A DNA stretch of 64,000 bases from Solwaraspora sp. WMMD792 (lineage in GTDB: Bacteria > Actinomycetota > Actinomycetes > Mycobacteriales > Micromonosporaceae): assembly GCF_029626105.1 (NCBI RefSeq), contig NZ_JARUBH010000009.1, forward strand, positions 992,001 to 1,056,000, read 5' to 3'. The notes beneath the pieces are model-generated. The model did no database searches, was not told the origin of the DNA, and saw nothing but the letters and a program-made list of their open reading frames with translations. The position numbers were made by a program, and so were the translations under genes. This document shows positions 2,036 through 62,500 of this stretch, in pieces. Each line of letters starts with the position of its first letter. Position 1 is the first letter of the stretch.

Positions 2036-2410
2036 ATGGGCTACGAGCTGCTGACCGTCGTCATCCTGACGGCACACTTCGGGTTCCTCGCCTACCTGGC
2101 GGTCGGCGGGTTCCTGGCCTGGCGGTGGCCGCGGACGATCTGGCTGCACCTGACCGCGGCGGGTTGGGGAGTGCTGGTGGTGGCGGCCAACCTGAGCTGC
2201 CCGCTCACCGTCGCCGAGCACTGGTCCCGCCGCCGGGCCGGCCAGGTCGGCTTCGACGAGGGGTTCGTCGAGCGCTACCTGACCGGGGTGATCTACCCCG
2301 ACCAGTACGCCTGGGCGGCCCGGCTGGTGCTGGCCGGGGTCGTCGTGGTCAGCTGGGCCGGGGTGCTCAGGGCAGTTCGGCGACGGCGTCGGCGAACTGC
2401 GCCCCGGTGA
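2036..2410 (+). CDS. DUF2784 family membrane protein
   Basis: A 124-residue protein of unknown function. ATG 2036 follows GGGGAGG with good spacing, and a possible -10 box TAGCCT lies at 2011-2016. Three hydrophobic segments are visible (about residues 5-27, 38-57 and 94-113), and the motif NLSCPLTVAEHW followed by F-ERYLTGVIYP is typical of the DUF2784 family of small bacterial membrane proteins. The C-terminus is a run of arginines, probably cytoplasmic. The last 44 bases overlap the 3' end of the convergent minus-strand gene that ends at 2367, so the two transcripts are complementary at their tails. No substrate or partner can be assigned. Confidence 0.8.
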   Translation: MGYELLTVVILTAHFGFLAYLAVGGFLAWRWPRTIWLHLTAAGWGVLVVAANLSCPLTVAEHWSRRRAGQVGFDEGFVERYLTGVIYPDQYAWAARLVLAGVVVVSWAGVLRAVRRRRRRTAPR

Positions 2411-3938
2411 TCACCGCCGCGTTCACCAGCGCGGCGAGCTGCGCCCCGCTGACCCCGTACGCCAGGTCGGTGCTCACGTCGCCGGCCAGGATCAGCTCGC
2501 CGGACCCGGTGTCGTGCACATAGGCCTTCGGCAGCAGCCGGTCGTGGTTCCACGAGTTGCAGAACCGGTACGCCTCGGCCAGCCGGTCCGCCGGCAGCCG
2601 CCGGTCGGCCAGCACCCGGCTGTGCAGCACCCGCTGCTGCTCGCCGAGTCGCTCGAAGTGGATCACCGCGTGTCCCCACTTGCCACCGACCACCCCGTTG
2701 TCGTCGACGAAGTACCGGTCGCCGCGTTCGTTGAGCGCCGCCGTGATGCCCTCCAGGGTCAACGGCGAGACCACGTCCGGGGTGCCGCCCGCTGGCGGTA
2801 CGCCGACCTCGCCGCCGGTGGCCGGCTGATCGGCCGGCAGCTCGACGGCGTCGGTCAGCGGCTCGGCGGCCAGCCAGCCGGCGATCCGCCGCGACTGGTG
2901 GTCGGTGCCGTTGCGGGCGTCGAACCGGCCCGCCAGCTCGGTGGCGGCGGCGGCCAGCTGCGCGCCGAGCGTGGCCACCGGTAGGTCTGCGGCCGGCCGG
3001 TCACCGTACTCCTGCCGGTGGACCGTCTCGTCGCCGTGGCCGGCAGCGGCCGCCAGCCGGCAGACCAGGGCACCGGCGGCGGCGAACTCCATCGCCGAAG
3101 CGTCGTCGTAGGGCCGGTCGAGCCACTCCAGATGCTCCCCGAGGATCGCCAGGCCACGCTCATGCTGACCGACCGCCGCGCAGAACCGCAGATGCTCGGC
3201 CAGGTAGGGGAAGGCGTCGCGTTCGTGCCGGTGCCGCCGGTACGCCCGGACATGCGCCTGCGCCGCGTCGGCGTACCGGCCCAGCCGCAGGTACGGCATG
3301 ATCACCGCGACCAGCGCCTTCTCCGGCTGCTCGGTGCAGCCGACCGCACCGCTGAGCACCGGTTCGGCGATCGCCAGCGCCGCCTCCCACTCACCCCAGC
3401 CGGCGAGCAGCTCGGCCTGGCGGGACGGGTCGCAGCCGGCGCAGTCGCTGTTCTCGTCCCGTGGGGCCGTGCGCCACCGGTCCAGCCACTGCCGGGCCTG
3501 GGCCTCGTCGCCGACATGGTCGGCGATCTTGCAGCGCAGGTTGTACACCGCCTGCAGGCTCTGCCCACTGGCGGTGAACCGGCGCTCCATGTCGTCCAGC
3601 GCGGCCCGGGTCTGCGCCAGACCCACCCGGGGCGTGCCGCGCAGCGTGGCGACCGCCCACTTGTGGTACCAGCGCAGCAGCTCGGCGTCCCACGGCTCGA
3701 ACAGCTCCGGATAACGGTCGAAGGTGCTCAGACACCAGCCGAACGCCGGCAGCATCCGCCAGCGTTCGGTGTGGTGGTTGTACGTCTCGATCAGCGCCAT
3801 CCGCGCGTCGAAGCCGATCCGTGCCTGCCCGGCCGCGTCGGCGTGCGCGGCGATCCGTTCCAGCTCGGCGATCTTGCCGTCGCCGTCGGGCAGGTCGGTG
3901 GCCTCGTCCAGCGCCTGGACCAGCTCCTCGGCGGTCAC
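2367..3938 (-). CDS. Helical-repeat protein with C-terminal YbjN domain
   Basis: A 523-residue protein. The chosen start is GTG 3938, which overlaps the stop of the Hsp90-family gene in a GTGA (3935-3938) and so suggests translational coupling. Residues 1 to about 370 are almost entirely alpha-helical with TPR-like periodicity and many W, Y and R residues (motifs such as WYHKWAVATLRG and YLRLGRYADAAQAHVRAY). Residues of about 390-520 form a YbjN domain (GVVGGKWGH, FCNSWNHDRLLPKAYVHD). A CAGCDP motif lies near residue 165. It is the last gene of a three-gene operon. In eukaryotes TPR proteins are Hsp90 co-chaperones and YbjN has a chaperone-like fold, so a co-chaperone or client-adaptor role is an attractive inference; nothing in the sequence proves it. 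Confidence 0.8.
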   Translation of the reverse strand: MTAEELVQALDEATDLPDGDGKIAELERIAAHADAAGQARIGFDARMALIETYNHHTERWRMLPAFGWCLSTFDRYPELFEPWDAELLRWYHKWAVATLRGTPRVGLAQTRAALDDMERRFTASGQSLQAVYNLRCKIADHVGDEAQARQWLDRWRTAPRDENSDCAGCDPSRQAELLAGWGEWEAALAIAEPVLSGAVGCTEQPEKALVAVIMPYLRLGRYADAAQAHVRAYRRHRHERDAFPYLAEHLRFCAAVGQHERGLAILGEHLEWLDRPYDDASAMEFAAAGALVCRLAAAAGHGDETVHRQEYGDRPAADLPVATLGAQLAAAATELAGRFDARNGTDHQSRRIAGWLAAEPLTDAVELPADQPATGGEVGVPPAGGTPDVVSPLTLEGITAALNERGDRYFVDDNGVVGGKWGHAVIHFERLGEQQRVLHSRVLADRRLPADRLAEAYRFCNSWNHDRLLPKAYVHDTGSGELILAGDVSTDLAYGVSGAQLAALVNAAVITGAQFADAVAELP

Positions 3939-5761
3939 GGGGTCTCCTCGGTGGGGGTGCCCGGCCCGGCGGCCGGATCGGTGAAGGCCCGGTCCAGCAG
4001 GGCCAGGAAGGACCGGTTGAGCGCGGCGCTGTCCACCGCCCGCAACGGATGGTGACCGGCGAGCAGCGCCTGGCCGTACAGCGCCTCGACGGCGTTGCGC
4101 AGCGCCGCTCCCGCCGGTTGCCCGGCGAGCCGGCGGATCAGCGGGTGCCGCCAGTTGAAGACCAGCTCCGGGCGGTGGTCGACGTCGACATCGGCGAACG
4201 CGGACAGCACCTCCGACCACAGCTCGTCGGAGCCGGCCACCGCACGGCGCACACTGTCCTGCTCGCGGGCGGCCTGGCCGAGGACGTACAGGGCCGGCAC
4301 CGTGACCGGGTCGAACTGCCGCAGCTGCGGTACGCAGTCCAGCTCGGCCAGCACCGCGCGGGCGGTGGCCAGGAAAGTCTCCGCCACCGCCAGCTGCCCG
4401 GGCGAAAGACTCTCCAACCGGGCGGCCAGCTCGCCAGGGTCCAGCCGGCGGGTACGGATCGCCGGGTCCAGCCGGGGCAGGCGCTGCAGGATCTCCGCGT
4501 CGTAGGCGTAGCCGGCGTTGACGATCGGCGTACCGGCGGCGGACGCGATCGCGGCCAGTGACCGGAACTCGTCGACCGTCTCCACGTACCGGATCATCGC
4601 CAGATGCTGGCGGAACAGCCGCAGCGGCATCATCCCCCGGCTGGTCTCGAACGGCAGCCACGAGTCGACCAGCCGCAGCATCTCGTCGTCGCGGACGGCG
4701 AGCGCCTTGACCCCGAGGTGGTGCACCCGCAGGAAAGCGGCGAGCCGTTCCGGCTGGCTGACCGACAGCTCCAGCAGCCAGCTGCGGATCTGCTCGCCGA
4801 GCCCGTCGCGGACCGCGCCGAGCAGGTCGTCCTCGTAGAGGGCCTCGCGGCTGGCGGTGGGGCGCAGCACGGAGGTGTCGACCACGCACCGGACGAAGAA
4901 CGCCCACTCCGGCAGCAGTTTGCTGGCGTCGTCGCTGAGCAGCATCCGTTTCAGGTAGACCCGGTGGCCGCCCTGGCCGACCGTCGACGCCGACGGCAGC
5001 ACGAAGCCGACGCCGACCAGCCCGGCTTCCGGCACCCGCAGGTCGATCACGTCCATCGGTCGGGCACCGAGCAGCGTCGCGCCGTAGTCCAGCAGCGCCT
5101 CCCGGCGGGCCGCCGGGTCGGCGTGGACCACCTCCCACGGGGCCTGCGGCTCGGTCAGCCGGACCGGCTCGCCTCCGGGCGGGCAGAACAGCACCGGGAC
5201 GTCCAGCAGCCGGGCGTAGTCGCGGACCAGGTCGCGGACCTGGTCGGCGGCCAGCCAGTGTCCGGCGTCGGCGCGGGGACGCAGCGTGACGGTGGTGCCG
5301 ACCGGTCCGCGTGCGGCGTCGTCGACCTCGGTGGTGTAGCGCCCGTCGGCGTACCCAATCCAGCGCACCGCCGGTCCGCCCCGGGCCGAACGGGTCACCA
5401 CCTCGACGGTGTCGGCGACCATGAAGCACGACAGCAGGCCGATGCCGAACTGGCCGAGGAAGTCCTGCCGGGCGAAGCCCAGGTCGTCCCGTTTGGAGGT
5501 ACGCCCGACGCTGGCCAGGAAGGTGTGCACCTGCGGTTCGGTCAGGCCGATGCCGTCGTCGTGCACCCGCAGGCCACCGTCGGCGGTGGGCTCGATCCGG
5601 ACGGTACCGCCGGCCCAGTCGGGCTCGGCCTCGCGCCGGGCGGTGATCGCGTCGGTGGCGTTCTGCACCAGCTCCCGGGCGAACACCCGAGGGCTGGCGT
5701 ACAGGTGGTGGCTGAGCAGGTCGACGATGCCGCGCAGATCGACCTGGAAACGGCGTTCCAT
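3935..5761 (-). CDS. Hsp90/HtpG-family ATPase
   Basis: A 608-residue chaperone-type ATPase, slightly shorter than typical HtpG. The start ATG 5761 (MERRFQVDLRG) lies 5 bases after the stop of the upstream YbjN gene. The N-terminal GHKL nucleotide-binding domain shows ELVQNATDA (Glu30, Asn34), HDDGIG (residues 67-72), the lid region and GQFGIG (103-108). The middle domain has CVVDTSVLRPTASRE, matching the HtpG region that holds the catalytic SRE arginine, so ATP hydrolysis is probably intact. The C-terminal dimerisation region is more divergent and ends in PTEETP; it lacks the eukaryotic MEEVD tail. It is flanked and coupled on both sides by YbjN-domain genes, unlike a solitary housekeeping htpG. 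I therefore call it Hsp90-family rather than htpG. Confidence 0.88.
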   Translation of the reverse strand: MERRFQVDLRGIVDLLSHHLYASPRVFARELVQNATDAITARREAEPDWAGGTVRIEPTADGGLRVHDDGIGLTEPQVHTFLASVGRTSKRDDLGFARQDFLGQFGIGLLSCFMVADTVEVVTRSARGGPAVRWIGYADGRYTTEVDDAARGPVGTTVTLRPRADAGHWLAADQVRDLVRDYARLLDVPVLFCPPGGEPVRLTEPQAPWEVVHADPAARREALLDYGATLLGARPMDVIDLRVPEAGLVGVGFVLPSASTVGQGGHRVYLKRMLLSDDASKLLPEWAFFVRCVVDTSVLRPTASREALYEDDLLGAVRDGLGEQIRSWLLELSVSQPERLAAFLRVHHLGVKALAVRDDEMLRLVDSWLPFETSRGMMPLRLFRQHLAMIRYVETVDEFRSLAAIASAAGTPIVNAGYAYDAEILQRLPRLDPAIRTRRLDPGELAARLESLSPGQLAVAETFLATARAVLAELDCVPQLRQFDPVTVPALYVLGQAAREQDSVRRAVAGSDELWSEVLSAFADVDVDHRPELVFNWRHPLIRRLAGQPAGAALRNAVEALYGQALLAGHHPLRAVDSAALNRSFLALLDRAFTDPAAGPGTPTEETP

Positions 5762-5766
5762 CCGGG

Positions 5767-6237
5767 TCAGCCCGCCAACTCGGCGACGGCGTCGCAGACC
5801 TGGCACCCGGTGGCGATCCCGCAGTCGAGCAGGTGGTCGAGCTGCGGGGCGCTGACTCCACGTTCCAACGCGGTGATCAGCTCACCGCAGACCCGGGCGG
5901 TGCCGTCGTCGTCGACGTGGACGAAGGTCTTGGGCCACAGCCGGTCGTGGTTCCACTCGTTGCAGAAGGCGTACAGCGCGGGTACGTCGTCCACGGTGAA
6001 CAGGGTCGACGCGATGGTCCGGACCCGCAGCACCTCGCCGTTGGGTCCGAGCCGGGAGAACACGATCAGGTTGTCGTTCCACCGGCCGACCAGGTCGCCG
6101 TCGGAGTCGGCCTGGAAGTGGTAACCACGGGAGGTGAGGGTCTCGGCGATCATCGCGGTGGTCAGCGGCCGCAGCACCTGCATCGCACCACCGCCGGAGG
6201 GCGCGTCGGGCAGGTCGTCTGGGTCCGGCGGGGGCAT
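5767..6237 (-). CDS. YbjN domain protein, single domain
   Basis: A 156-residue protein that is little more than one YbjN domain. ATG 6237 is preceded by AAAGGA at suitable spacing. After an acidic, Pro-rich N-terminus of about 20 residues come [19 protein letters not shown], the LRVRT strand, [22 protein letters not shown] and [15 protein letters not shown]. The same hallmarks occur at the end of the third gene of the operon. YbjN proteins resemble type III secretion chaperones in fold, and E. coli YbjN affects stress and motility; the actinobacterial role is unknown. The stop is 5 bases before the Hsp90 gene, so this is the first gene of the operon. The 236 bases upstream, up to ftsK, are divergent and should hold its promoter. 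Confidence 0.85.
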
Positions 6238-6459
6238 GCGGTGGTCCTTTCGGTACGGCACGTCGGACGGCGGGCCTCGCGCTCCGGCCGGCAGCCGGCG
6301 CGCGGACGGGCCGGCGATGTCCGGACGGGGGTCCGGCGATGGACGGCGTCGTCGTGGCCCGGGGGACAGTAGGGGCCGTTCGGAATGGTGGCACAGCCGC
6401 GCCGCCCCGCGTGGTTCGGACACGACCCGGAAAAGCGAGGGTTTGTATGCCGGTGGGGT

Positions 6460-6465
6460 TACCGT
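6460..6465 (+). promoter_or_regulatory. -10 box for leaderless ftsK
   Basis: TACCGT lies 8 bases before ATG 6474, the spacing expected when the transcript starts at the start codon. No convincing -35 is seen. The same hexamer serves as a -10 at lexA, nrdR and the dioxygenase-like gene in this window. Confidence 0.5.
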
Positions 6466-6473
6466 GGGACTCT

Positions 6474-8987
6474 ATGGCCGGCCGAACCTCCCAGGCGAAT
6501 CGGCGGCGTGGCGGGTCGACCAGCCGCGGCGCCGCGACCGGTCGTGCCCGGACCCCGGCCCGCAAGCGCCCGACGGCCCGTCGGCGCCCGGCCCGCAACT
6601 CGCCGGCAGTCCTGGTCGGTCGCGCGGTCGGCGCCACCTGGATGGGGCTGGCGCACGGCGTCGGCTGGGCGGTGCGTACCGCCGGTCGTCGGGCGGCCAC
6701 CGCGCGGGAGCTGAGCCCGGAGCACCGGCGTGACGGTGCCGGGCTGTTCGTACTCGGCCTGGCCATCCTCACCTCGATGGCGATCTGGTTCGGCGCGGCC
6801 GGTCCGTTCGGAGTCCGCGTCGCGGACATGATGCGGCTGTTCGTCGGCGCGATCGCGGTCGCCGTGCCGTTGCTGCTGCTGATCGGCGCGGTCCGGCTGA
6901 TGCGTGACCCACCGGAGGAGCCGGAACCCCGGGGCCGCGGGCTGGTCGGCTGGTCGGCGATGCTGGTCGCCACGGCGGGGCTGCTGCACATCGGCCAACG
7001 CCCCGACGACGACCTGCAGCGTGACTACGCCGGCGGGCTGATCGGGCTCGGCGTCGGTACGGTACTGGAGCGCACGGTCAGCTACTGGGTCGGCGTACCG
7101 CTGCTGATCCTGCTGCTGATCTTCGGTCTGCTGGTCGTCACCGCCACTCCGATCAACCGGATCCCGGAGCGGCTCGGGCTGCTCGCCGGGGTGGTGACCG
7201 GGCGAGGGCCGGAGTCCGGTCCGACCTCGGCCGACGCCAGTGACGACGCCGGTGACGACGAGACCGCCGGCGACGAGCGGGCCCGCCGCCGACCGCCGCG
7301 CCGCCGGCAGGCCAGCCGGACGGCCGACGCCCCGCCGGCACCGTCGGCCGGTGACGACGGTGCCCCGGCCGAGCCGCTCGATCTGCAGGAGACGATGGAG
7401 CTGCCGCGCCGGCCGGCGGCGAAGGTGCCGACCACCCGCACCCCGCCGGAGCCGCCGGAGCATTCCCCGACCCCGACCCGCGCCGAGCAGTTGGCGATCA
7501 CCGGGCTGTCCGGGGATTATCGCCTGCCGCCGGCCAAACTGCTGCGGACCGGGCCGCCGGCGAAGACCCGCAGCAAGGCCAACGACGAGGTGATCGCCGC
7601 GCTGCAGGGGGTGTTCGAGCAGTTCGACGTCGACGCGGCGGTCACCGGGTTCACCCGTGGCCCGACGGTGACCCGCTACGAGGTGGAGCTCGGCCACGGG
7701 GTCAAGGTGGAGCGGATCACCCAGCTCTCCCGCAACATCGCGTACGCGGTGAAGTCACCGGACGTGCGGATCCTCAGCCCGATCCCAGGCAAGAGCGCGG
7801 TCGGCGTGGAGATCCCGAACACCGACCGGGAGGACGTGTCGCTCGGCGACGTGCTGCGCTCCCGGGCCGCCAGCGCCGACCACCACCCGATGCTGGTGGC
7901 GCTCGGCAAGGACATCGAGGGCGGCTTCGTGGTGGCCAACCTGGCGAAGATGCCGCACATCCTGATCGCCGGGGCGACCGGCGCCGGCAAGTCGTCCTGC
8001 CTGAACTCGCTGCTCATCTCGATCCTCAGCCGGGCCACCCCGGACGAGGTACGGCTGCTGCTGATCGACCCCAAACGGGTCGAGATGACCGGGTACGAGG
8101 GCATCCCGCACCTGGTCACCCCGATCGTGACCAACCCCAAGAAGGCGGCCGAGTCGCTGGAGTGGGTGGTACGCGAGATGGACATGCGCTACGACGACCT
8201 GGCCGCGAACGGCGTCCGGCACATCGACGACTACAACCGCAAGGTACGGGCCGGGGAGATCACCGCTCCCCCCGGCAGCGAGCGGGAGATCCGGCCGTAC
8301 CCGTACCTGCTGGTGATCGTCGACGAGCTGGCCGACCTGATGATGGTCGCCCCCCGGGACGTGGAGGACTCGGTCGTCCGGATCACCCAGCTCGCCCGGG
8401 CCGCCGGCATCCACCTGGTGCTGGCCACCCAGCGGCCGTCGGTGGACGTGGTGACCGGCCTGATCAAGGCGAACGTGCCGTCCCGGCTGGCCTTCGCCAC
8501 GTCGTCGCTGTCCGATTCGCGGGTCATCCTGGACCAGCCGGGCGCCGAGAAGCTGATCGGCCGGGGCGACGGCCTGTTCCTGCCGATGGGGGCGTCGAAA
8601 CCGCTGCGTATCCAGGGTGCCTGGGTCAGCGAGAAGGAAATCGACGAGATCGTCGCCTTCTGCAAGAAGCAGCGCGAGCCGGAGTTCCGCCCCGACGTGC
8701 TCACCACCGCCCAGGAGAACAAGAAGAAGATCGACGAGGACGTCGGCGACGATCTCGACCTGCTGGTCCAGGCGATCGAGCTGGTGGTGACCTCGCAGTT
8801 CGGGTCGACCTCGATGCTGCAGCGCAAACTGCGGGTCGGGTTCGCCAAAGCGGGCCGGTTGATGGATCTGATGGAGACCCGGGGCATTGTCGGGCCGTCC
8901 GAGGGTTCCAAGGCCCGCGACGTCCTGGTCAAGCCGGACGAGCTGGAGGACGCGCTGACGAGTCTGCGGGCCGTCGAGGCGAGCTGA
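6474..8987 (+). CDS. ftsK: FtsK/SpoIIIE DNA translocase
   Basis: An 837-residue septal DNA pump that moves chromosomes through the closing septum or into spores. The N-terminus is basic (repeated RRR and RKR), followed by four membrane segments between about residues 85 and 240, then an acidic, Pro-rich linker. The motor follows: Walker A GATGAGKS at residues 500-507, Walker B-type [13 protein letters not shown], and [24 protein letters not shown] with the sensor arginine. The last 65 residues are the winged-helix gamma domain ([34 protein letters not shown]), which reads KOPS/SRS-type sequences. I chose ATG 6474 because TACCGT lies 8 bases upstream; ATG 6447, with an upstream GCGAGGG, is an alternative that adds nine residues. 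Confidence 0.95.
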
Positions 8988-9063
8988 CCGCACTGGTACG
9001 GTCGGCTGACCGATCGGATCGTCCGGCACCGCGCCGCCCGGCCGCCGTACGCCGGTGGCCCGG

Positions 9064-9069
9064 TACCCT
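9064..9069 (+). promoter_or_regulatory. -10 box for leaderless rimO
   Basis: TACCCT at 9064-9069 is followed by 6 bases and then GTG 9076. There is no Shine-Dalgarno sequence before this GTG, so transcription probably begins at the start codon. This decides the start over ATG 9055. Confidence 0.55.
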
Positions 9070-9075
9070 CGTCAG

Positions 9076-10587
9076 GTGTCTGCTTTTCCCCCGCCTCCCG
9101 CCCAACCGCCCGGCCGGCGCGTCGCCCTGCTCACCCTGGGGTGCGCCCGCAACGAGGTCGACTCGGAAGAGTTGGCCGCCCGGCTGGACGCCGACGGCTG
9201 GCAGGTGACCACCGACGCCGACGGTGCCGACGTGGTGCTCGTCAACACCTGCGGCTTCGTCGAGAAGGCCAAGCAGGACTCGGTGCAGACGCTGCTCGAC
9301 GCCGCGGACGGCGGGGCCAAGGTGGTGGCCGCCGGCTGCATGGCCGAACGGTACGGCCGGGAGCTCGCCGAGCACCTGCCTGAGGCGCAGGCCGTCCTCG
9401 GGTTCGACGACTACCCGGACATCTCCGGCCGGCTGCGGGCGGTGCTGGCCGGCGAGCAGCTGCCCGCGCACGCGCCCCGGGACCGCCGCACGATGCTGCC
9501 GCTGACCCCGGTTTCCCGGCAGCGCTCCGGTGTCGTCGTGCCCGGTCACGCGACGGTCGACGAGCACACCCCCGCGCACCTTCGCGCGGTCCTGCGGCGT
9601 CGGCTGGCCAGCGGCCCGGTGGCGTCGCTGAAACTGGCCAGCGGCTGTGACCGCCGGTGCGCCTTCTGCGCCATCCCGGCGTTCCGGGGGGCGTTCGTCT
9701 CCCGCGTTCCCGAGGAGCTGCTGGCCGAGGCCGAGTGGCTGGCCGGCACCGGCGTTCGGGAACTCGTGCTGGTGAGCGAGAACTCGACCTCGTACGGCAA
9801 GGATCTGGGCGATCCGCGGCTGCTGGAGAAGCTGCTGCCACAGCTGGCCGCCGTCGACGGCATCGTCCGGGTGCGGGTCAGCTACCTGCAGCCGGCGGAG
9901 ACCCGTCCGGGCCTGATCGAGACGATCGCCACCACGGCCGGCGTGGCACCGTACTTCGACCTGTCCTTCCAGCACGCCAGTGAGCCGGTGCTGCGCCGGA
10001 TGCGGCGCTTCGGCTCCACCGGGCGGTTCCTCGACCTGCTGGCCTCGGCCCGGTCACTGGCGCCGCAGGCCGGCGCGCGAAGCAACTTCATCGTCGGGTT
10101 CCCCGGCGAGACCCGGTCGGACGTCGACGAACTGGTCCGTTTCCTGTCCGCGGCCCGGTTGGACGCGATCGGGGTGTTCGACTACAGCGACGAGGACGGC
10201 ACCGAGGCCGCTGGACTGCCCGACAAGGTACGGGCCGCCACGGTGAAGCGGCGCTATGACCGGATCTGTGCGCTGGCCGACGAGTTGTGCGCGCAGCGGG
10301 CCGAGGAACGGGTCGGCACGACGGTGGAGGTGCTGGTCGACAGCGTCGACGACGGGCTGGTGGAGGGTCGGGCCGCGCACCAGGCACCGGAGGTGGACGG
10401 GTCGACGACGCTGGTGGCCGGCGCCGCCGCCGCCACCGGAGCCGGGGTCGACCTCGCCATGCTGCGCCCCGGCGACCTGGTCCGGGCGACGGTGACCGGG
10501 ACCGAAGGGGTCGACCTGGTGGCAGTGCCGAGTGACGTGCTCTCGTCCGGTACGGCCGACCGGCCGCTCTCCACCGCGGTCAGGTGA
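9076..10587 (+). CDS. rimO: Ribosomal protein uS12 methylthiotransferase RimO
   Basis: A 503-residue radical SAM enzyme that adds a methylthio group to the conserved aspartate of ribosomal protein S12, using two 4Fe-4S clusters. Domain order: N-terminal UPF0004 domain with cysteines in [16 protein letters not shown] and AAGCMAE; radical SAM core with CDRRCAFC (CxxxCxxC); C-terminal TRAM domain. The motifs [14 protein letters not shown] and FIVGFPGET are RimO-like. The start is GTG 9076, leaderless. The protein is longer than E. coli RimO because of an insertion after the N-terminal domain. pgsA follows 4 bases after the stop, so rimO, pgsA and the CinA-like gene form one transcription unit. 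The paralogue miaB, which modifies tRNA, lies at 45705. Confidence 0.93.
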
Positions 10588-10591
10588 GCCG

Positions 10592-11194
10592 ATGACCGAG
10601 CCGGGCGGCTCCGCCGGTCCGCGTACCGCCGTCGCCGCGGTGCCGGTGGTCAACGCGGCCAACGCGCTCACCGGGCTACGCATGGTGCTGGTGCCGGTCT
10701 TCGTGGTGTTCGTGGTTCTCTCCGAGATGACCCATCCGGGCTGGCGGATCGCCGCCTGCCTGACGTTCGTCGTCGCGTCGGCGACCGACCTGATCGACGG
10801 CTGGATCGCCCGCCGGTACGCCTTGGTGACGTCGTTCGGCAAGGTCGCGGACCCGATCGCCGACAAGGCGCTGACCGGCACCGCGCTGGTACTGCTGTCC
10901 TGGTACGACCTGGTGCCCTGGTGGGTGACCGGGCTGATCCTGGTGCGTGAGTGGGGAGTCACGCTGATCCGGTTCTGGGTGCTGCGGCACGGGGTGATCG
11001 CGGCGAGCCGGGGCGGCAAGGCGAAGACGGCGCTGCAGATCACGGCGATCGTCTGGTACCTGCTTCCGCTGCCGTCGGTGCTTGCCGCGGTCGCTCCGTG
11101 GATCATGGCGGCTGCGCTGCTGGTCACCGTGGCGACCGGGCTGGACTACCTGGTCCGTGCGTTGCGGCTGCGCCGTACCGGGCCGGACCGGTGA
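10592..11194 (+). CDS. pgsA: CDP-diacylglycerol-glycerol-3-phosphate 3-phosphatidyltransferase
   Basis: A 200-residue membrane enzyme that makes phosphatidylglycerophosphate, the precursor of phosphatidylglycerol and cardiolipin. The CDP-alcohol phosphotransferase signature is complete: D66-xx-DG (69-70)-xx-AR (73-74), then G83-xxx-D87-xxx-D91. Several transmembrane helices are evident (for example MVLVPVFVVFVVL near residue 31 and a C-terminal pair). ATG 10592 follows the rimO stop by 4 bases. Its stop overlaps the next gene's GTG as GTGA. The next genes downstream are the CinA-like amidase and clgR, as in many actinobacteria. A paralogue specific for inositol or serine head groups cannot be excluded, but position and sequence favour PgsA. 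Confidence 0.9.
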   Translation: MTEPGGSAGPRTAVAAVPVVNAANALTGLRMVLVPVFVVFVVLSEMTHPGWRIAACLTFVVASATDLIDGWIARRYALVTSFGKVADPIADKALTGTALVLLSWYDLVPWWVTGLILVREWGVTLIRFWVLRHGVIAASRGGKAKTALQITAIVWYLLPLPSVLAAVAPWIMAAALLVTVATGLDYLVRALRLRRTGPDR

Positions 11195-11796
11195 CCTCGG
11201 CCGGGTCGGAGCGAGTGCCTCCGGCCGGGTCGGACCGGGTGCCTCCGGCCGGCCCGCCAGCGGGCGGGCGGCCGGCGCCGGACGGCGGCGATCTCGGCAT
11301 GGGGCGGTCGGCCAGCGGTAGCCCGGCGGCGGCGGTCGTGCACGCCCTGGCCGAGCGGGGCGAGACGCTGGCGGTCGTCGAGTCGCTCACTGGTGGCTTG
11401 CTGGCGTCCGCCCTGGTCGAGGTTGCCGGGGCGAGCCTGGTCTTCCGCGGTGGGCTGGTCGTGTACGCCACCGACCTGAAACGCACCCTGGCCGGCGTGC
11501 CGGAGCGGTTGCTCGCCGACCGCGGACCGGTCGACCCGGACGTCGCGGTCGCCATGGCCCGGGGTGCCCGGGTCCGGTGCGCCGCCGAGTGGGCGCTGGC
11601 GACTACCGGGGTGGCCGGCCCACAGCCGCAGGGCGGCAAGCCGGTCGGGCGGGTCTACGTCGCCCTGGCCGGTCCGGCTGGCGTGCATCAGGTCCGGCGG
11701 TTGGACCTCGGCGGCGGTCGAGATGCGGTACGCAGGTCGAGCGTGACCGCTGCCCTGCGGCTGTTGACGACGCAACTACACGCCACGCGGCCCTGA
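11191..11796 (+). CDS. CinA C-terminal family nicotinamide-nucleotide amidase
   Basis: A 201-residue protein of the CinA C-terminal (PncC) family, which deamidates nicotinamide mononucleotide to the carboxylate form. Core motifs: ESLTGGLLAS, FRGGLVVYATDLKRTLAGV, AVAMARGARV, and ATTGVAGPQPQGGKPVGRVYVAL. The first 36 or so residues are Pro/Gly-rich with a short repeat (RVPPAGSDRVPPAG). The start is taken as GTG 11191, which overlaps the pgsA stop (GTGA); ATG 11299 is an alternative that removes the low-complexity leader. It lies between pgsA and clgR, where CinA-type genes are common in actinobacteria. The N-terminal molybdopterin-binding-like domain of full CinA is absent. Confidence 0.85.
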   Translation: MTSAGSERVPPAGSDRVPPAGPPAGGRPAPDGGDLGMGRSASGSPAAAVVHALAERGETLAVVESLTGGLLASALVEVAGASLVFRGGLVVYATDLKRTLAGVPERLLADRGPVDPDVAVAMARGARVRCAAEWALATTGVAGPQPQGGKPVGRVYVALAGPAGVHQVRRLDLGGGRDAVRRSSVTAALRLLTTQLHATRP

Positions 11797-11962
11797 GCGG
11801 GGGACACCCGGGACGCCGAGCGGATATAACTGACATCTGACTCTGATCGCCCTGCCCGGCCCGATTCGTGCTCTCGGGTGGGGTGTCGATCGGGTGACGA
11901 ACGGATAAGGTTGCGGGAAGCCTCCGGCACTCGCCGGCCGGTCCCGGACAGGGGGAGGTGCG

Positions 11963-12487
11963 ATGGTCCTGCTACGCCGCGTTATCGGTGACGCGCTGCG
12001 TGCCCGCCGGCAGGGTCAGCGCCGGACTCTGCGCGAGGTCTCCACCGCCGCGAACGTCAGCCTCGGCTACCTTTCCGAGATCGAGCGCGGCCAGAAGGAA
12101 GCCTCGAGTGAGCTGCTCGCTGCGATCTGCGACGCGCTGGGTGCTCAGTTGTCCGAGGTGCTGCGTGACGTGAGCCACACCGTCGCCGTCGCCGAGCAGC
12201 GGCAGGGCCTGCTGGTTCCGTTTCCCGAGCAGTCCCCGACGTCGCCCGCCGCGTCGCCCGAGCGGCCCCTGGAGGAGCGGCCGAGCCGCAGCGAGGTTCT
12301 GCGCTCCGCCCCGGACGGCGCCGTCGGCACCGCCGAGCGGGGCGACGCTTCGGTGCACCAGGTCGCCACCGAGGGCGGGGTGACCGTCTCGGTCCGCAGC
12401 GACTCGCCGCTCAAGACGACGCTGCGGGCCTCCCGGCGGGTGCCGAACACCGGCGGTCGGGACCGTGACGTCGTCTGCGCCGCCTGA
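11963..12487 (+). CDS. clgR: XRE-family transcriptional activator ClgR
   Basis: A 174-residue regulator. The start ATG 11963 follows GGGGGAGG. Residues of about 9-68 form a Cro/CI-type helix-turn-helix ([31 protein letters not shown]), the signature of ClgR, which activates clp protease genes and, in mycobacteria, the psp genes. The C-terminal half is rich in P, S and E and is probably disordered. In Streptomyces ClgR is itself degraded by ClpP through its C-terminus; here the end is VVCAA, and a two-alanine end fits such a degron. The order pgsA, clgR, pspA, pspM matches Mycobacterium tuberculosis (Rv2746c to Rv2743c). A possible -10 TAAGGT lies at 11906-11911. Confidence 0.9.
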
Positions 12488-12556
12488 GCCGCGGCCGATC
12501 GAGCGGCAGCGTGCTGCCGGATCCTGGGCTCGCCACCGCTGGATCCGGGACACTAA

Positions 12557-12571
12557 GGTTGACCCTCAACC
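12557..12571. promoter_or_regulatory. Palindrome between clgR and pspA (possible operator)
   Basis: GGTTGA-CCC-TCAACC is a perfect 6-bp inverted repeat with a 3-base centre in the 232-base gap between clgR and pspA. It is too short for a terminator and the right size for a dimeric regulator. A GTTCGC half-site (12688-12693), like half of a ClgR box, lies nearer pspA. Confidence 0.35.
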
Positions 12572-12719
12572 GGCCCACCCTGCCGGATCCCACCGACGGC
12601 GGCTTACGCGGTGGCGACGGCCTGGGACGATGGTAGGGGTGCCGGCGCACCGTACCGCCCGGGTCGGGTCGCCGTGACCGCCTGACCGTTCGCGCCGATA
12701 GTGAGGGGATACCGCAGAG

Positions 12720-13601
12720 ATGGCGAACCCGTTCGTCAAGGGTTGGCGCTACCTGATGGCGCTGTTCGGCGCCAAGATAGATGAGCACGCCGACCCCAAG
12801 GTGCAGATCCAGCAGGCGATCGAGGACGCCCAGCGCCAGCACCAGGCACTGGTTCAGCAGGCCGCCGCGGTGATCGGCAACCAGCGACAGCTGGAAATGA
12901 AACTCTCCCGGCAGATGAGCGAGGTCGAGCGGCTGCAGGGGATGGCCCGGCAGGCGCTGGTGCTGGCCGACAAGGCCCGCGCCGAGGGCGACGAGGCGGA
13001 GGCGAACAAGTACGAGCAGACCGCCCAGACTCTCGCCACCCAGTTGGTCGCCGGCGAGCAGTCGATGGAGGACCTCAAGACCCTGCACGACCAGTCGTTG
13101 GCCGCCGCTGCTCAGGCCCGTCAGGCGGTGGAGAACAATCAGATGATCCTGCAGCAGAAGCTGGCCGAGCGGACCAAGCTGCTGAGCCAGCTCGAGCAGG
13201 CCAAGATGCAGGAGACCGTGGCGTCGTCGCTGGAGTCGATGTCGGCGCTCGCCGCGCCGAAGAACACGCCGTCGCTCGACGAGGTGCGGGACAAGATCGA
13301 GCAGCGCTACGCCACCGCGATGGGCCGGGCCGAGCTGGCCGGCAACTCCGTCGAGGGGCGGATGCTCGAGGTGCAGAAGTCCACCCTCGACATGGCTGGT
13401 TCGTCGCGGCTCGATCAGATCCGGGCCAGCATGGCGGGAGAGAAGCTCGCCGGGGCACAGCCGGGGCCGGCGGTCGAGCAGACCCCGGCGGGTGCGGACA
13501 GCACGGCCGGCGCGGACAGCGCCAGTGTCGCCCGCCTCGACCAGCTCCGTGCCTCGATGGCGAAGGACAAGAACACCGGTGACGCCTCCGCCGCCGGCTG
13601 A
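12720..13601 (+). CDS. pspA: Phage shock protein A (PspA/IM30/ESCRT-III family)
   Basis: A 293-residue membrane-remodelling protein that polymerises on the inner face of stressed membranes. [38 protein letters not shown] is the standard start, with the amphipathic membrane-binding helix. Residues of about 25-215 are a long coiled coil ([61 protein letters not shown]). The C-terminal 70 residues are a flexible, Ala-rich tail with repeated RLDQ(I/L)RASMA near 238 and 272, resembling the mycobacterial 35-kDa antigen. ATG 12720 has a weak GTGAGGGG site 12 bases upstream. It lies between clgR and pspM. Confidence 0.92.
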
Positions 13602-13733
13602 CCATCGGGCTGGGCACGTGGTGACCGGCCCGGTTCAGCCGGTGCCGTAGGCAGGGGGCACGGGACGGCCATCCCCGGCCGGGGTGGTGTCGCCTCGAGG
13701 CGGCGGCGTCCGAGGGGGCGGGAAGGAGCAACG

Positions 13734-59504: not shown

Positions 59505-62500
59505 ATGGCGGGGGATGGTGTGACCGCGAAGACAGGCGGTAGCGGTAGCGGCGGCACGGCCAAGGCCAACGGTGCGGCAGGCTCGGCCAACGGCGCGGCG
59601 AAGGCCAACGGCAAGGCCGGATCGGCCAACGGCAAGTCCGGTTCGGCCGCGGGCTCCAACGCGCGGGTACGGGCCAAGGCCGGCGCGGCTGGCCTGACCA
59701 TCGAGCGGGTGTGGACCACCGAGGGCGTGCACCCGTACGACGAGGTGACCTGGCAGCGCCGCGACGTGGTGATGACCAACTGGCGCGACGGCACGGTCAA
59801 CTTCGAACAGCGCGGCGTGGAGTTCCCGGAGTCGTGGAGCGTCAACGCGGCCAACATCGTCACCACCAAGTACTTCCGTGGGGCGGTGGGGACCCCGCAG
59901 CGGGAATGGTCGCTCAAGCAGCTGATCGACCGGGTGGTGAAGACCTACCGGGCAGCGGGGGAGCAGCACGGCTACTTCGCCACCCCGGGCGACGCCGAGA
60001 TCTTCGAGCACGAGCTGACCTGGATGCTGCTGCACCAGGTGTTCAGCTTCAACTCGCCGGTCTGGTTCAACGTCGGCACCGCCTCCCCCCAGCAGGTATC
60101 AGCGTGCCAGCCGTACCACTCGCTCGTGAGCACGCCGGCCGGCCTCGTCCCGATCGGCAAGCTGGTCGAGGAAAACGCCGTCGGAGCCAAGGTCTACGAC
60201 GCACACGGGCTGACCCGAATTCTCGCGGTCCAGGCCAATGGCATCAAGGACGTATTGCGCCTGCACACCAAAGCCGGCTACACCCTGGACGTCACCGCAG
60301 ACCACCTGGTCTGGAAATCGACCGGCGAGGGCACCGGTCGGTTCGTCGAAGCCGGCACCTTGGTCGCTGGCGACACTCTCGAATGGCACCGGCGGGGCAG
60401 CGACGGCGAGGCGGAGTTCCACCCCGGCGACGTCCACGAGGCCGCGCTGGCCGGTTGGCTGCAGTCAGACGGCTTCGTCGGCCAGTACGATCAGGGCACC
60501 AACCGGTCGCTGACGATCGAGGCGATGACCGTCAACGACGACGAACTCAGCTGGGTCGTCGCCGCGATCGACCAGGTCTTCCCTGGCGCGCACCGCCATG
60601 AACGCCGCGTCGTCACCCAGGACGTCACCCTCGACTGCCGGCGGACCCGGTTGTACGGGAAGAACCTGCGCCCGTTCATCGAAAAGTGGGGCCTGCTTGC
60701 CCGGGGCACCGAGATGGAGGTGCCGGCAACGCTGTTCACCGCGCCGTTGCCGGTCGTCGCCGCCTATCTGAAGAGCATCTTCCAGGCAGAGGGCTATATC
60801 TCGGCGCGTGAGGCGTCCACCTTGGTCGGCGTGGACATGATCGGCGAGCGGTTGATTCGCGGGCTGCAGCGGCTGCTGCTGCGCTTCGGGATCTTCGCCC
60901 GGGTCGGTTTCAAGGCCGACCCGCGACCGAACCGGCACGGCACCTGGTCGTTGCGCATCCAGAACCACGGCGACCGGGACACCTTCGCCGCGGAAATCGG
61001 GTTCGTCGACGCCCGCAAGTCCGGCAAGCTGGAGGAGAGCTTTGCCAAGGTGGGCCGGTCCGCCAAGGCGACGAAACGCCTCGTCATCGACCGGGTCGAA
61101 TCGCTCGGGGCGATGGAGGTCTACGACATCCAGACCGAGTCGGGGGAGTACCTCTCCGACAACCTGCGAGTGCACAACTGCTTCATCCTCGCCGTCGACG
61201 ATTCGATGGATTCCATCCTCGATTGGTACAAAGAGGAAGGGTTGATCTTCAAGGGTGGTTCCGGGTCCGGGGTGAACCTGTCCCGGATCCGCTCCTCCAA
61301 GGAACTGCTGTCCAGCGGCGGCACCGCCTCCGGCCCGGTCAGCTTCATGCGCGGCGCCGACGCCTCGGCCGGCACCATCAAGTCCGGCGGCGCCACCCGC
61401 CGGGCCGCCAAGATGGTCATCCTCGACGTCGACCACCCCGACATCGAGGAGTTCGTGCAGACCAAGGCCCGCGAGGAGGACAAGATCCGGGCGTTGCGCG
61501 ACGCCGGGTTCGACATGGACCTCGGCGGTGCCGACATCGTCAGCGTCCAGTACCAGAACGCCAACAACTCGGTCCGGGTCTCCGACGAGTTCATGCGGGC
61601 GTACGAGGACGGCGGCAACTTCGACCTGCGGGCCCGGCTCGACGGCTCGGTGATCGACACCGTCGACGCCAAGAAGCTGTTCGGCACCATCGCGCAGGCC
61701 GCCTGGGAATGCGCCGACCCCGGTCTGCAGTACGACGACACGATCAACGACTGGCACACCTGCCCGGAGAGCGGACGCATCACCGCGTCCAACCCCTGCT
61801 TCACCGGCGACACCCTGGTCCACACCGACAAGGGGCTGATCCGGTTCGACGCCCTAGTGGACCGGAGCCGCCAGGGCGAGTCGTTCGGCGTCTACACCCA
61901 CGACGCCACCAACCCGGATGCGCCCGCTGACCAGGTCGTGCTGACCAGCCCCGAAGCGGTCATGATCACCGGGACGAACGAGATCACCCGGCTCGAGTTC
62001 AGCAACGGCATGGTGCTGCGCTGCACCCCGAACCACCGGATCTGGACCACCAACCGGGGGTACGTCGAGGCCAAGGACCTCACCCCGGACGACCAGATCC
62101 TGCCGCTCAACCAGCCCACCCCGGCGACCGCCGCGTCCTGGGAGTTCCGCATGCGCGCGGACGCCAGGGTGTCACCCGGCGACGTCGTGCCGACCAAGTG
62201 GCAACGCGAGTCCCGACTGCCGGAGAAGTGGACCGAGGACTTCGCCCACCTGCTCGGCTGGCTGGTCGGCGACGGCTCAGTCCGGGAAGGCACCCCGGGC
62301 GTACGCGGCAACGGACCCGGTGCCAGCTGGGTCTACAGCCAGTCCGACCCGGAGGCCATCGTCCAGCGGCACCAGACGGTGCTGGAAAGCATCGTCGGCC
62401 TGCGATTCGATCCGGTGCAGATGCCCAATGGCACCCTGCAACTGCGCAGCAACCGTACTGCCGTCGTCGACTTCCTGACCGGACTCGGCGTGAGCACCGC

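Follow-up and report, generated by a model that had tools for sequence, protein, structure and literature searches.

The locus analyzed here raises the question of whether a bacterial Hsp90 may have a dedicated co-chaperone built of tetratricopeptide repeats (TPRs). It lies at positions 2367–6237 of a stretch of 64,000 nucleotides (hereafter, the window) from the genome of Solwaraspora sp. WMMD792 (Micromonosporaceae; RefSeq assembly GCF_029626105.1, contig NZ_JARUBH010000009.1, forward-strand positions 992,001–1,056,000). An earlier note, made from the sequence alone, had described three tightly packed minus-strand genes at this site, coding for a YbjN-domain protein, an Hsp90 and a helical-repeat protein ending in a second YbjN domain, and both the arrangement and the coordinates were borne out. 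The first gene (5767..6237) encodes a stand-alone YbjN-domain protein of 156 amino acids (aa), YbjN1; the second (3935..5761) encodes a 608-aa PRK14083-type Hsp90 that is complete through the C-terminal dimerization region; and the third (2367..3938) encodes a 523-aa TPR-YbjN protein. A gap of 5 bases separates the YbjN1 and Hsp90 genes, and the Hsp90 and TPR-YbjN genes share the bases GTGA, in which the start of the latter overlaps the stop of the former. Comparison of homologous loci suggests that the conserved core is the Hsp90 together with the N-terminal TPR solenoid of its partner, and that this core is narrower and older than the YbjN–Hsp90–TPR triad. We consider it fairly probable that the locus encodes an Hsp90/TPR pair forming a dedicated co-chaperone module, the ends of which can be swapped and probably bind clients, a reading based on the observed gene order, conservation, shared ancestry, residue conservation and TPR model.

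Pairing of Hsp90 with a TPR-N Protein

The part common to the Hsp90-linked partners, TPR-N, spans approximately residues 1–360 of TPR-YbjN (2859..3938, minus strand). The profile scan covered 152 loci, including that of the window; eight are the same contig under a second identifier, leaving 144 distinct loci, and many had been chosen for holding a PRK14083 Hsp90, none for holding TPR-N. Hsp90 is immediately followed, on its own strand, by a TPR-N homologue scoring at least 70 bits in 144 of the 152 loci (137/144 distinct ones). The remaining eight comprise L108, in which TPR-YbjN stands before Hsp90; L131 and L140, the same contig, which ends too early; L132 and L133, with a weak TPR-N match directly downstream of Hsp90; L087; and L116 and L130, with no TPR-N match, the latter having an adjoining TPR protein by Pfam. 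In L087 (genome G298, 6790-13708), the gene after a divergent Hsp90 encodes a BTAD/NB-ARC/TPR regulator, and next comes a 360-aa weak TPR-N homologue, about 4 kb past the Hsp90 end.

The association was also evident in unselected genomes. Among 296 genomes of the phylum, Hsp90 scored above the cut-off in ten (12 copies) and TPR-N in 12 (14 copies), and TPR-N was adjacent to all 12 Hsp90 copies. Among 197 genomes of the class, a sample overlapping in part with the former, 24 had Hsp90 (27 copies) and 25 had TPR-N (29 copies), with 23 genomes in common. TPR-N lay directly downstream of 26 of these 27 Hsp90 copies, only the divergent copy of G567 lacking it. Three TPR-Ns had no Hsp90 partner, those of the Hsp90-less YbjN loci of G204 and G339 and that of G171. 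Fisher's test of co-occurrence, with relatedness ignored, gave p-values of 5 × 10−17 and 1 × 10−26 for the two samples. The pairing extends to Bacillota: in Listeria, two TPR-N proteins, of 324 and 320 aa, come after a PRK14083-family Hsp90, and in Paenibacillus, the Hsp90 has a 353-aa TPR-N partner. Thus, the TPR partner that the earlier note assigned to this Hsp90 is found far more widely than the triad, while the YbjN parts stand outside the core. A second TPR-N protein after the first (tandem duplication of the partner), as in Listeria, was seen at L104, L138/L149, L195 and L220. L220 and NZ_CP030101.1 are Listeria records labelled as plasmids that contain genes of chromosomal appearance (fri, queG and trmL) or are chromosome-sized; they are probably mislabelled chromosomes.

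An overlap of exactly 4 bases joins the Hsp90 gene to the TPR gene in 77–80 of 138 loci; when all overlapping or abutting pairs are counted, the total is 96–98, both ranges reflecting the rule for choosing starts. A Shine–Dalgarno-like motif precedes the TPR start in 102/138 loci when the start nearest to the Hsp90 stop is taken, and in 111/138 when starts with a motif are preferred. Hsp90 and TPR-N distances correlate across 140 loci (r, 0.91), and where a genome contributed two fetched pairs (12 genomes), the true assignment ranked first among 4,096 (correlation, 0.927; median, 0.458). This correlation shows partner fidelity and not contact, because linked genes share history anyway.

Hsp90 Family and Integrity

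The window Hsp90 belongs to NCBIfam family NF010683/PRK14083 (764 bits; cut-off, 455). It is the second of its kind in the 7.4 Mb genome, which also has a canonical HtpG-type gene elsewhere. Ten residues (E30, N34, D37, D68, G70, G72, G103, G106, G108 and R305) were identical in all 155 Hsp90 homologues compared, eight duplicates included. We take these to be the nucleotide-site and catalytic residues of the GHKL fold, with R305 as the catalytic arginine, and the intact nucleotide site and arginine noticed earlier in the sequence are thereby confirmed. A degenerate C-terminus was ruled out, as the profile alignment of window-type Hsp90 to 13 canonical HtpGs (561 columns, profile columns 7–589; probability, 99.9) reaches the end and includes the LYGQALL region. 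In-frame stops were listed for Hsp90 in six genomes; the one checked (L072) proved to be the normal terminal stop. A match was also present in a 6.6 kb record named 'Bacteriophage sp.'.

Bacterial HtpGs have been split into Groups A–C, and a 615-aa second copy (HTPG2) has been reported in Streptomyces coelicolor (BMC Genomics 2006, PMC1525184). Judging by its size and by the two HtpG groups of Streptomyces, the window Hsp90 is probably a "Group C" HtpG, and HTPG2 itself would belong to both Group C and the PRK14083 family. Apart from this presumed family membership, the two proteins are alike in size, in standing beside a canonical HtpG and in the intact GHKL site and catalytic arginine. However, HTPG2 is treated as a lone chaperone, and the available part of that paper (PMC1525184) mentions no TPR partner.

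The TPR Partner and Its Variable C-Terminus

In the AlphaFold model of TPR-YbjN (mean predicted local distance difference test score, pLDDT, of 85.2 for the whole protein), residues 1–360 form a TPR superhelix. Pfam analysis of 32 partners returned TPR or TPR-like families only, and NCBIfam analysis of the same 32 returned seven families only, none of them in more than two members. Partners differ in their C-terminal part, which consists of more TPRs in most of the Actinomycetota loci seen and of a YbjN domain in the window, and which is absent in Listeria and Paenibacillus, where TPR-N stands alone. Among partners without YbjN, 96 of 119 are 800–1100 aa long. TPR-N had no sequence match, at E-values up to 0.1, to PDB chains named as co-chaperones. 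It is approximately 6–12% identical to the TPR superhelices of MalT domain III, APC/C chain O (presumably APC5), Rap/NprR and Tom70, the last being an Hsp70/Hsp90-binding receptor; the shared TPR fold shows no function.

The Listeria region, which we take to be lmo0942–lmo0941–lmo0940, resembles the window in that an Hsp90 of the same family is followed by TPR-N proteins, but these are two and consist of TPR-N only, and no YbjN is found there. The product of lmo0941 is described as a hypothetical protein of unknown function (PMC6901971). The combination of Hsp90 with a TPR-solenoid partner recalls eukaryotic Hsp90 with Hop/Sti1, Cpr6 or FKBP51; in contrast to these, the bacterial Hsp90 has no MEEVD tail, and its partner is encoded in the same operon.

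C-Terminal Tail of Hsp90

The acidic tail of the window Hsp90, PTEETP, had been proposed as the contact for the helical-repeat partner. Its codons (...ACC GAG GAG ACC CCG TGA) contain a GAGGAG (3944-3949, minus strand) that encodes the two glutamates and, within 3936..3949, resembles a ribosome-binding site, as 5 bases separate it from the overlapping GTG start of the TPR-YbjN gene (3936-3938). A Glu-Glu pair is present within the last eight Hsp90 residues in 10 of 17 loci with the YbjN variant (type Y) and in 29 of 138 loci in total, and in 26 of these 29 it is encoded by GAGGAG. Such tails were found in 25/98 loci where the genes overlap or abut versus 4/40 where they are apart, and the pair is far commoner in tails than in the protein body. 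Since GAGGAG is the usual codon pair for Glu-Glu elsewhere in these genes too, the argument rests on the position of the pair and its lack of conservation. PTEETP is better explained as the ribosome-binding site of the TPR gene than as a docking motif, and the proposed contact is not upheld. The EEVD-type acidic tail that goes with a eukaryotic-type TPR co-chaperone is absent from window-type Hsp90.

Distribution of the YbjN Variant

The second YbjN domain (YbjN2) occupies residues 395–520 of TPR-YbjN (2379..2756, minus strand). Both YbjN1 (85.6 bits) and YbjN2 (63.9 bits) pass the PF10722 gathering score (cut-off, 22), and the two are 41% identical and share an FCNxWNHDRLxPK stretch. They are thus well within the YbjN/AmyR/DR1245 family, from which the window departs in having one of its YbjN domains as part of an Hsp90-linked TPR protein.

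In a search that was not exhaustive, type Y was seen only in Micromonosporaceae. With a YbjN1 orthologue cut-off of E 7 × 10−40, placed at a gap in the match list, orthologues were found in 65 of 150 genomes of the family, and a PRK14083 Hsp90 of either type in 117 of the 150. Hsp90 stands beside YbjN1 in 22 of the 65 genomes (in G299, the contig stops before the YbjN part of the TPR gene), YbjN1 is followed by TPR-YbjN without Hsp90 in 29, all confirmed by reading, and YbjN1 is alone in 14. YbjN1 is close by for 50 of 51 YbjN2 matches, the exception being G317, in which TPR-YbjN stands before Hsp90 and no separate YbjN1 passes the cut-off. The triad is conserved in the genus of the window and under six other Micromonosporaceae genus codes (among the codes of this study, g229 is Phytohabitans, g214 Catellatospora, g216 Asanoa and g2 probably Micromonospora). 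Conservation across relatives, which the earlier note had asked to be checked, holds in part: within the scope of this search the YbjN parts were seen in this family only, and Hsp90 is often absent. Including L108, type Y formed one clade in the Hsp90 tree (19/19; support, 0.98) and in the TPR-N tree (33/33; support, 1.0); without L108, support was 0.48 for Hsp90 and 0.91 for TPR-N (38 in a second TPR-N tree). Both partner types occur together in five genomes examined.

As Hsp90 is missing from 29 of the 50 loci having YbjN1 and TPR-YbjN, the three genes are not an obligate set. These loci, and the 14 genomes with YbjN1 alone, agree with an explanation that we regard as quite unlikely, in which YbjN and TPR-YbjN work as a unit, be it as chaperone or regulator, to which Hsp90 is only loosely tied as an accessory that is often lost. 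An Actinomyces oris locus (NZ_CP116225.1, L219, 4316-9033) fits it as well. Here, a YbjN (33.7 bits), a YbjN-like protein (18.6 bits, below the cut-off) and a 1011-aa TPR-N protein are encoded one after another, and neither annotation nor matching places an Hsp90 within some 6 kb of them. This TPR-N keeps all five residues of the candidate patch described below; the arrangement represents a separate YbjN/TPR-N association. Against such a unit, TPR-N goes with Hsp90 and not with YbjN across the Actinomycetota and Bacillota loci seen, and its residues decay after Hsp90 loss.

Loci without Hsp90 and a Candidate Docking Patch

The neighbours of type-Y loci with and without Hsp90 are mostly common to both and mark an ftsK-flanked site. 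An ftsK homologue was present in the fetched stretch of 29 of 32 type-Y loci by tblastn, and of L225 by gene call; two Catellatospora loci are without it. The YbjN1 and TPR-YbjN genes overlap by 4 bases in 10 of 14 Hsp90-less loci checked. Because TPR-N elsewhere goes with Hsp90, these loci are read as cases of Hsp90 loss, which would have taken place two or three times.

Rates were compared on a fixed tree for 29 loci, three of the 32 being dropped for lack of ftsK. The TPR-N/FtsK length ratio was 1.26 with Hsp90 and 2.92 without it, while the corresponding values were 1.73 and 2.14 for YbjN1, and 1.38 and 1.96 for YbjN2. Without the fixed tree, the ratios with and without Hsp90 were 1.16 and 3.06 (TPR-N), 1.76 and 1.79 (YbjN1), and 1.20 and 1.84 (YbjN2). 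The faster change of TPR-N is clear in g2 and g230 but does not show within g216.

To localize this change, we took the 44 positions of TPR-N that are conserved where Hsp90 is present (23 type-Y and 121 other sequences) and followed them in the 29 Hsp90-less loci. In the latter, 30 positions stay at 90% or above, nine are intermediate, and five (F66, W90, K93, R160 and D165) fall to 14–34%. The full set of five is present in all 23 type-Y loci that have Hsp90, two of which are repeats, as well as in 106/121 other loci, and 25 of the 29 Hsp90-less loci keep none or one. F66, W90, K93 and D165 are also found in Listeria and Paenibacillus. In the AlphaFold model, F66 lies on helix 59–75 and W90 and K93 on helix 82–100, and the loop preceding helix 169–180 carries R160 and D165. 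The faster change of TPR-N and the loss of these residues point to a direct contact with Hsp90, as judged from two or three independent losses. Separately, Cys166, Cys169 and Cys201 of TPR-N (window 3336-3443), a possible metal site, are kept in 29/29 Hsp90-less loci, Listeria and Paenibacillus, and are lost in L108.

The pairing, the coupling and the residue loss after Hsp90 loss would be explained equally well if the TPR protein were a dedicated client, folded or stabilized by Hsp90, and the five residues part of what Hsp90 recognizes; moreover, Hsp90-less genomes may still use a canonical HtpG such as that of the window genome. We nevertheless judge a client role unlikely, as TPR-YbjN is kept without a neighbouring Hsp90 in 29 loci, with 30/44 conserved positions retained, and presumably folds alone.

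Several observations weigh against a co-chaperone module with direct contact. All five residues survive in three of the Hsp90-less loci, and four of them in another, L229; L108, in which Hsp90 is present in reversed order, has lost W90, K93 and D165; and in G171, a genome without a PRK14083 Hsp90, the TPR protein keeps W90, R160 and D165. Within g216, and for L229 relative to its sister, the rise in rate is not specific to TPR-N, and the subgroup TPR-N/YbjN1 ratios overlap (0.54–1.10 with Hsp90 and 0.89–1.42 without). The Hsp90-less loci amount to only two or three independent losses, and some of the co-evolution signal stems from neighbouring genes being inherited together. In the TPR-YbjN model, the YbjN2 part shows a strand-helix pattern at low confidence (pLDDT about 50–75). 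Finally, because YbjN1 and TPR-YbjN persist without Hsp90, the YbjN part either has a role independent of Hsp90 or uses HtpG.

Proposed Mechanism

If the co-chaperone module is accepted, the full-length PRK14083-type Hsp90 would work with the TPR superhelix protein, translation of the two being coupled on one mRNA. TPR-N would dock on Hsp90 via a patch including the five residues above, and the swappable C-terminal module of the partner would bring the client. In type Y, stand-alone YbjN1 would pair with the fused YbjN2, as YbjN and class I secretion chaperones pair; the YbjN pair would hold an unfolded client segment, TPR-N would present the client to Hsp90, and ATP-driven closing of Hsp90 would remodel it. 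Physical docking, the YbjN–YbjN dimer and client holding are the steps that we infer.

YbjN1 and YbjN2 probably form a heterodimer, and a working pair fits the almost constant presence of YbjN1 near YbjN2. The YbjN/AmyR/DR1245 structures have a dimerizing fold like that of class I type III chaperones (PMC5398634, PMC3575483), and the most conserved region of AmyR lies at its dimer interface, with surfaces conserved only among close relatives (PMC5398634). The FCNxWNHDRLxPK stretch would correspond to this interface region. YbjN has also been discussed as a stabilizer of unstable proteins (PMC3575483).

More broadly, and tentatively, we see it as a distinct possibility that the locus belongs to an ancient bacterial Hsp90 co-chaperone system, in which direct binding of a TPR solenoid to a Group C Hsp90 is older than the divergence of Actinomycetota from Bacillota and the client end of the solenoid protein was exchanged (TPR array or YbjN). 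The Micromonosporaceae YbjN heterodimer would then be a client-loading head, and the docking patch would have decayed after repeated Hsp90 loss.

Binding of the TPR protein to Hsp90 would be notable if true. The conserved, coupled TPR partner is a concrete co-chaperone candidate with a predicted docking patch and natural Hsp90-less controls, and two questions become testable with it: whether bacterial TPR proteins co-chaperone Hsp90 without the EEVD mechanism, and which proteins are the clients of bacterial Hsp90. According to the title of one paper, HtpG of M. tuberculosis reportedly associates with DnaJ2, which points the other way from the statements that follow. For bacterial Hsp90, no co-chaperone that participates in protein remodelling is said to have been identified (PMC7926864), and none were known for E. 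coli HtpG (PMC4428384), in the available parts of these sources. The consulted part of a 2012 review states that there was no evidence for a specific HtpG function in a streptomycete (PMC3603443). The protein families are each known; among the matches listed in the open-licence literature, no description of Hsp90–TPR or Hsp90–YbjN pairing was found, and the pairing was thus not found in print within that scope. The available part of PMC5398634 names Hsp90 only in the title of a reference.

Genomic Neighborhood

Across 73 of 80 named loci, no identified gene but the Hsp90/TPR-N pair recurs in at least four genera, so no third conserved gene accompanies it there, and the link to secretion or proteases for which the earlier note had suggested looking did not emerge. 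The clusters reaching four genera were the pair, antisense calls over the pair and one unidentified four-member cluster, although the crude gene caller could have missed some. This bears on the idea that the locus is a conflict or defence system built on chaperones, similar to the TY-chaperone/ADP-ribose systems that have been proposed. In its favour are the published placement of YbjN in the TY-chaperone superfamily (PMC9503650) and a distant homologue on a Pseudanabaena plasmid (L222, 5222-13821), an 877-aa Hsp90-like protein with a C-terminal extension that adjoins TIR, TPR, VWA and AAA ATPase genes in what could be a conflict-type island. We find such a system very improbable for the window: no effector was identified in the named loci, PADLOC gave only generic ATPase matches for Hsp90 and none for YbjN1 or TPR-YbjN, the TY-Chap1 domain scored below its cut-off in YbjN1 (E, 0.081; 13 bits; cut-off, 27), and the type-Y locus, near ftsK in most cases, looks vertically inherited.

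No sigma-70-like promoters or terminators were found in 2200-6600, and a heat-shock operator near the operon was rejected in the absence of HAIR or CIRCE matches; one HAIR-like match with three mismatches lies at 8157, with 0.6 such matches expected. The 3′ end of the TPR-YbjN gene and a plus-strand DUF2784 gene (2036-2410; 117.7 bits) overlap convergently by 44 bases (window 2367-2410). The sole tRNA found in the window is tRNA-Asn (gtt) at 60815-60909.

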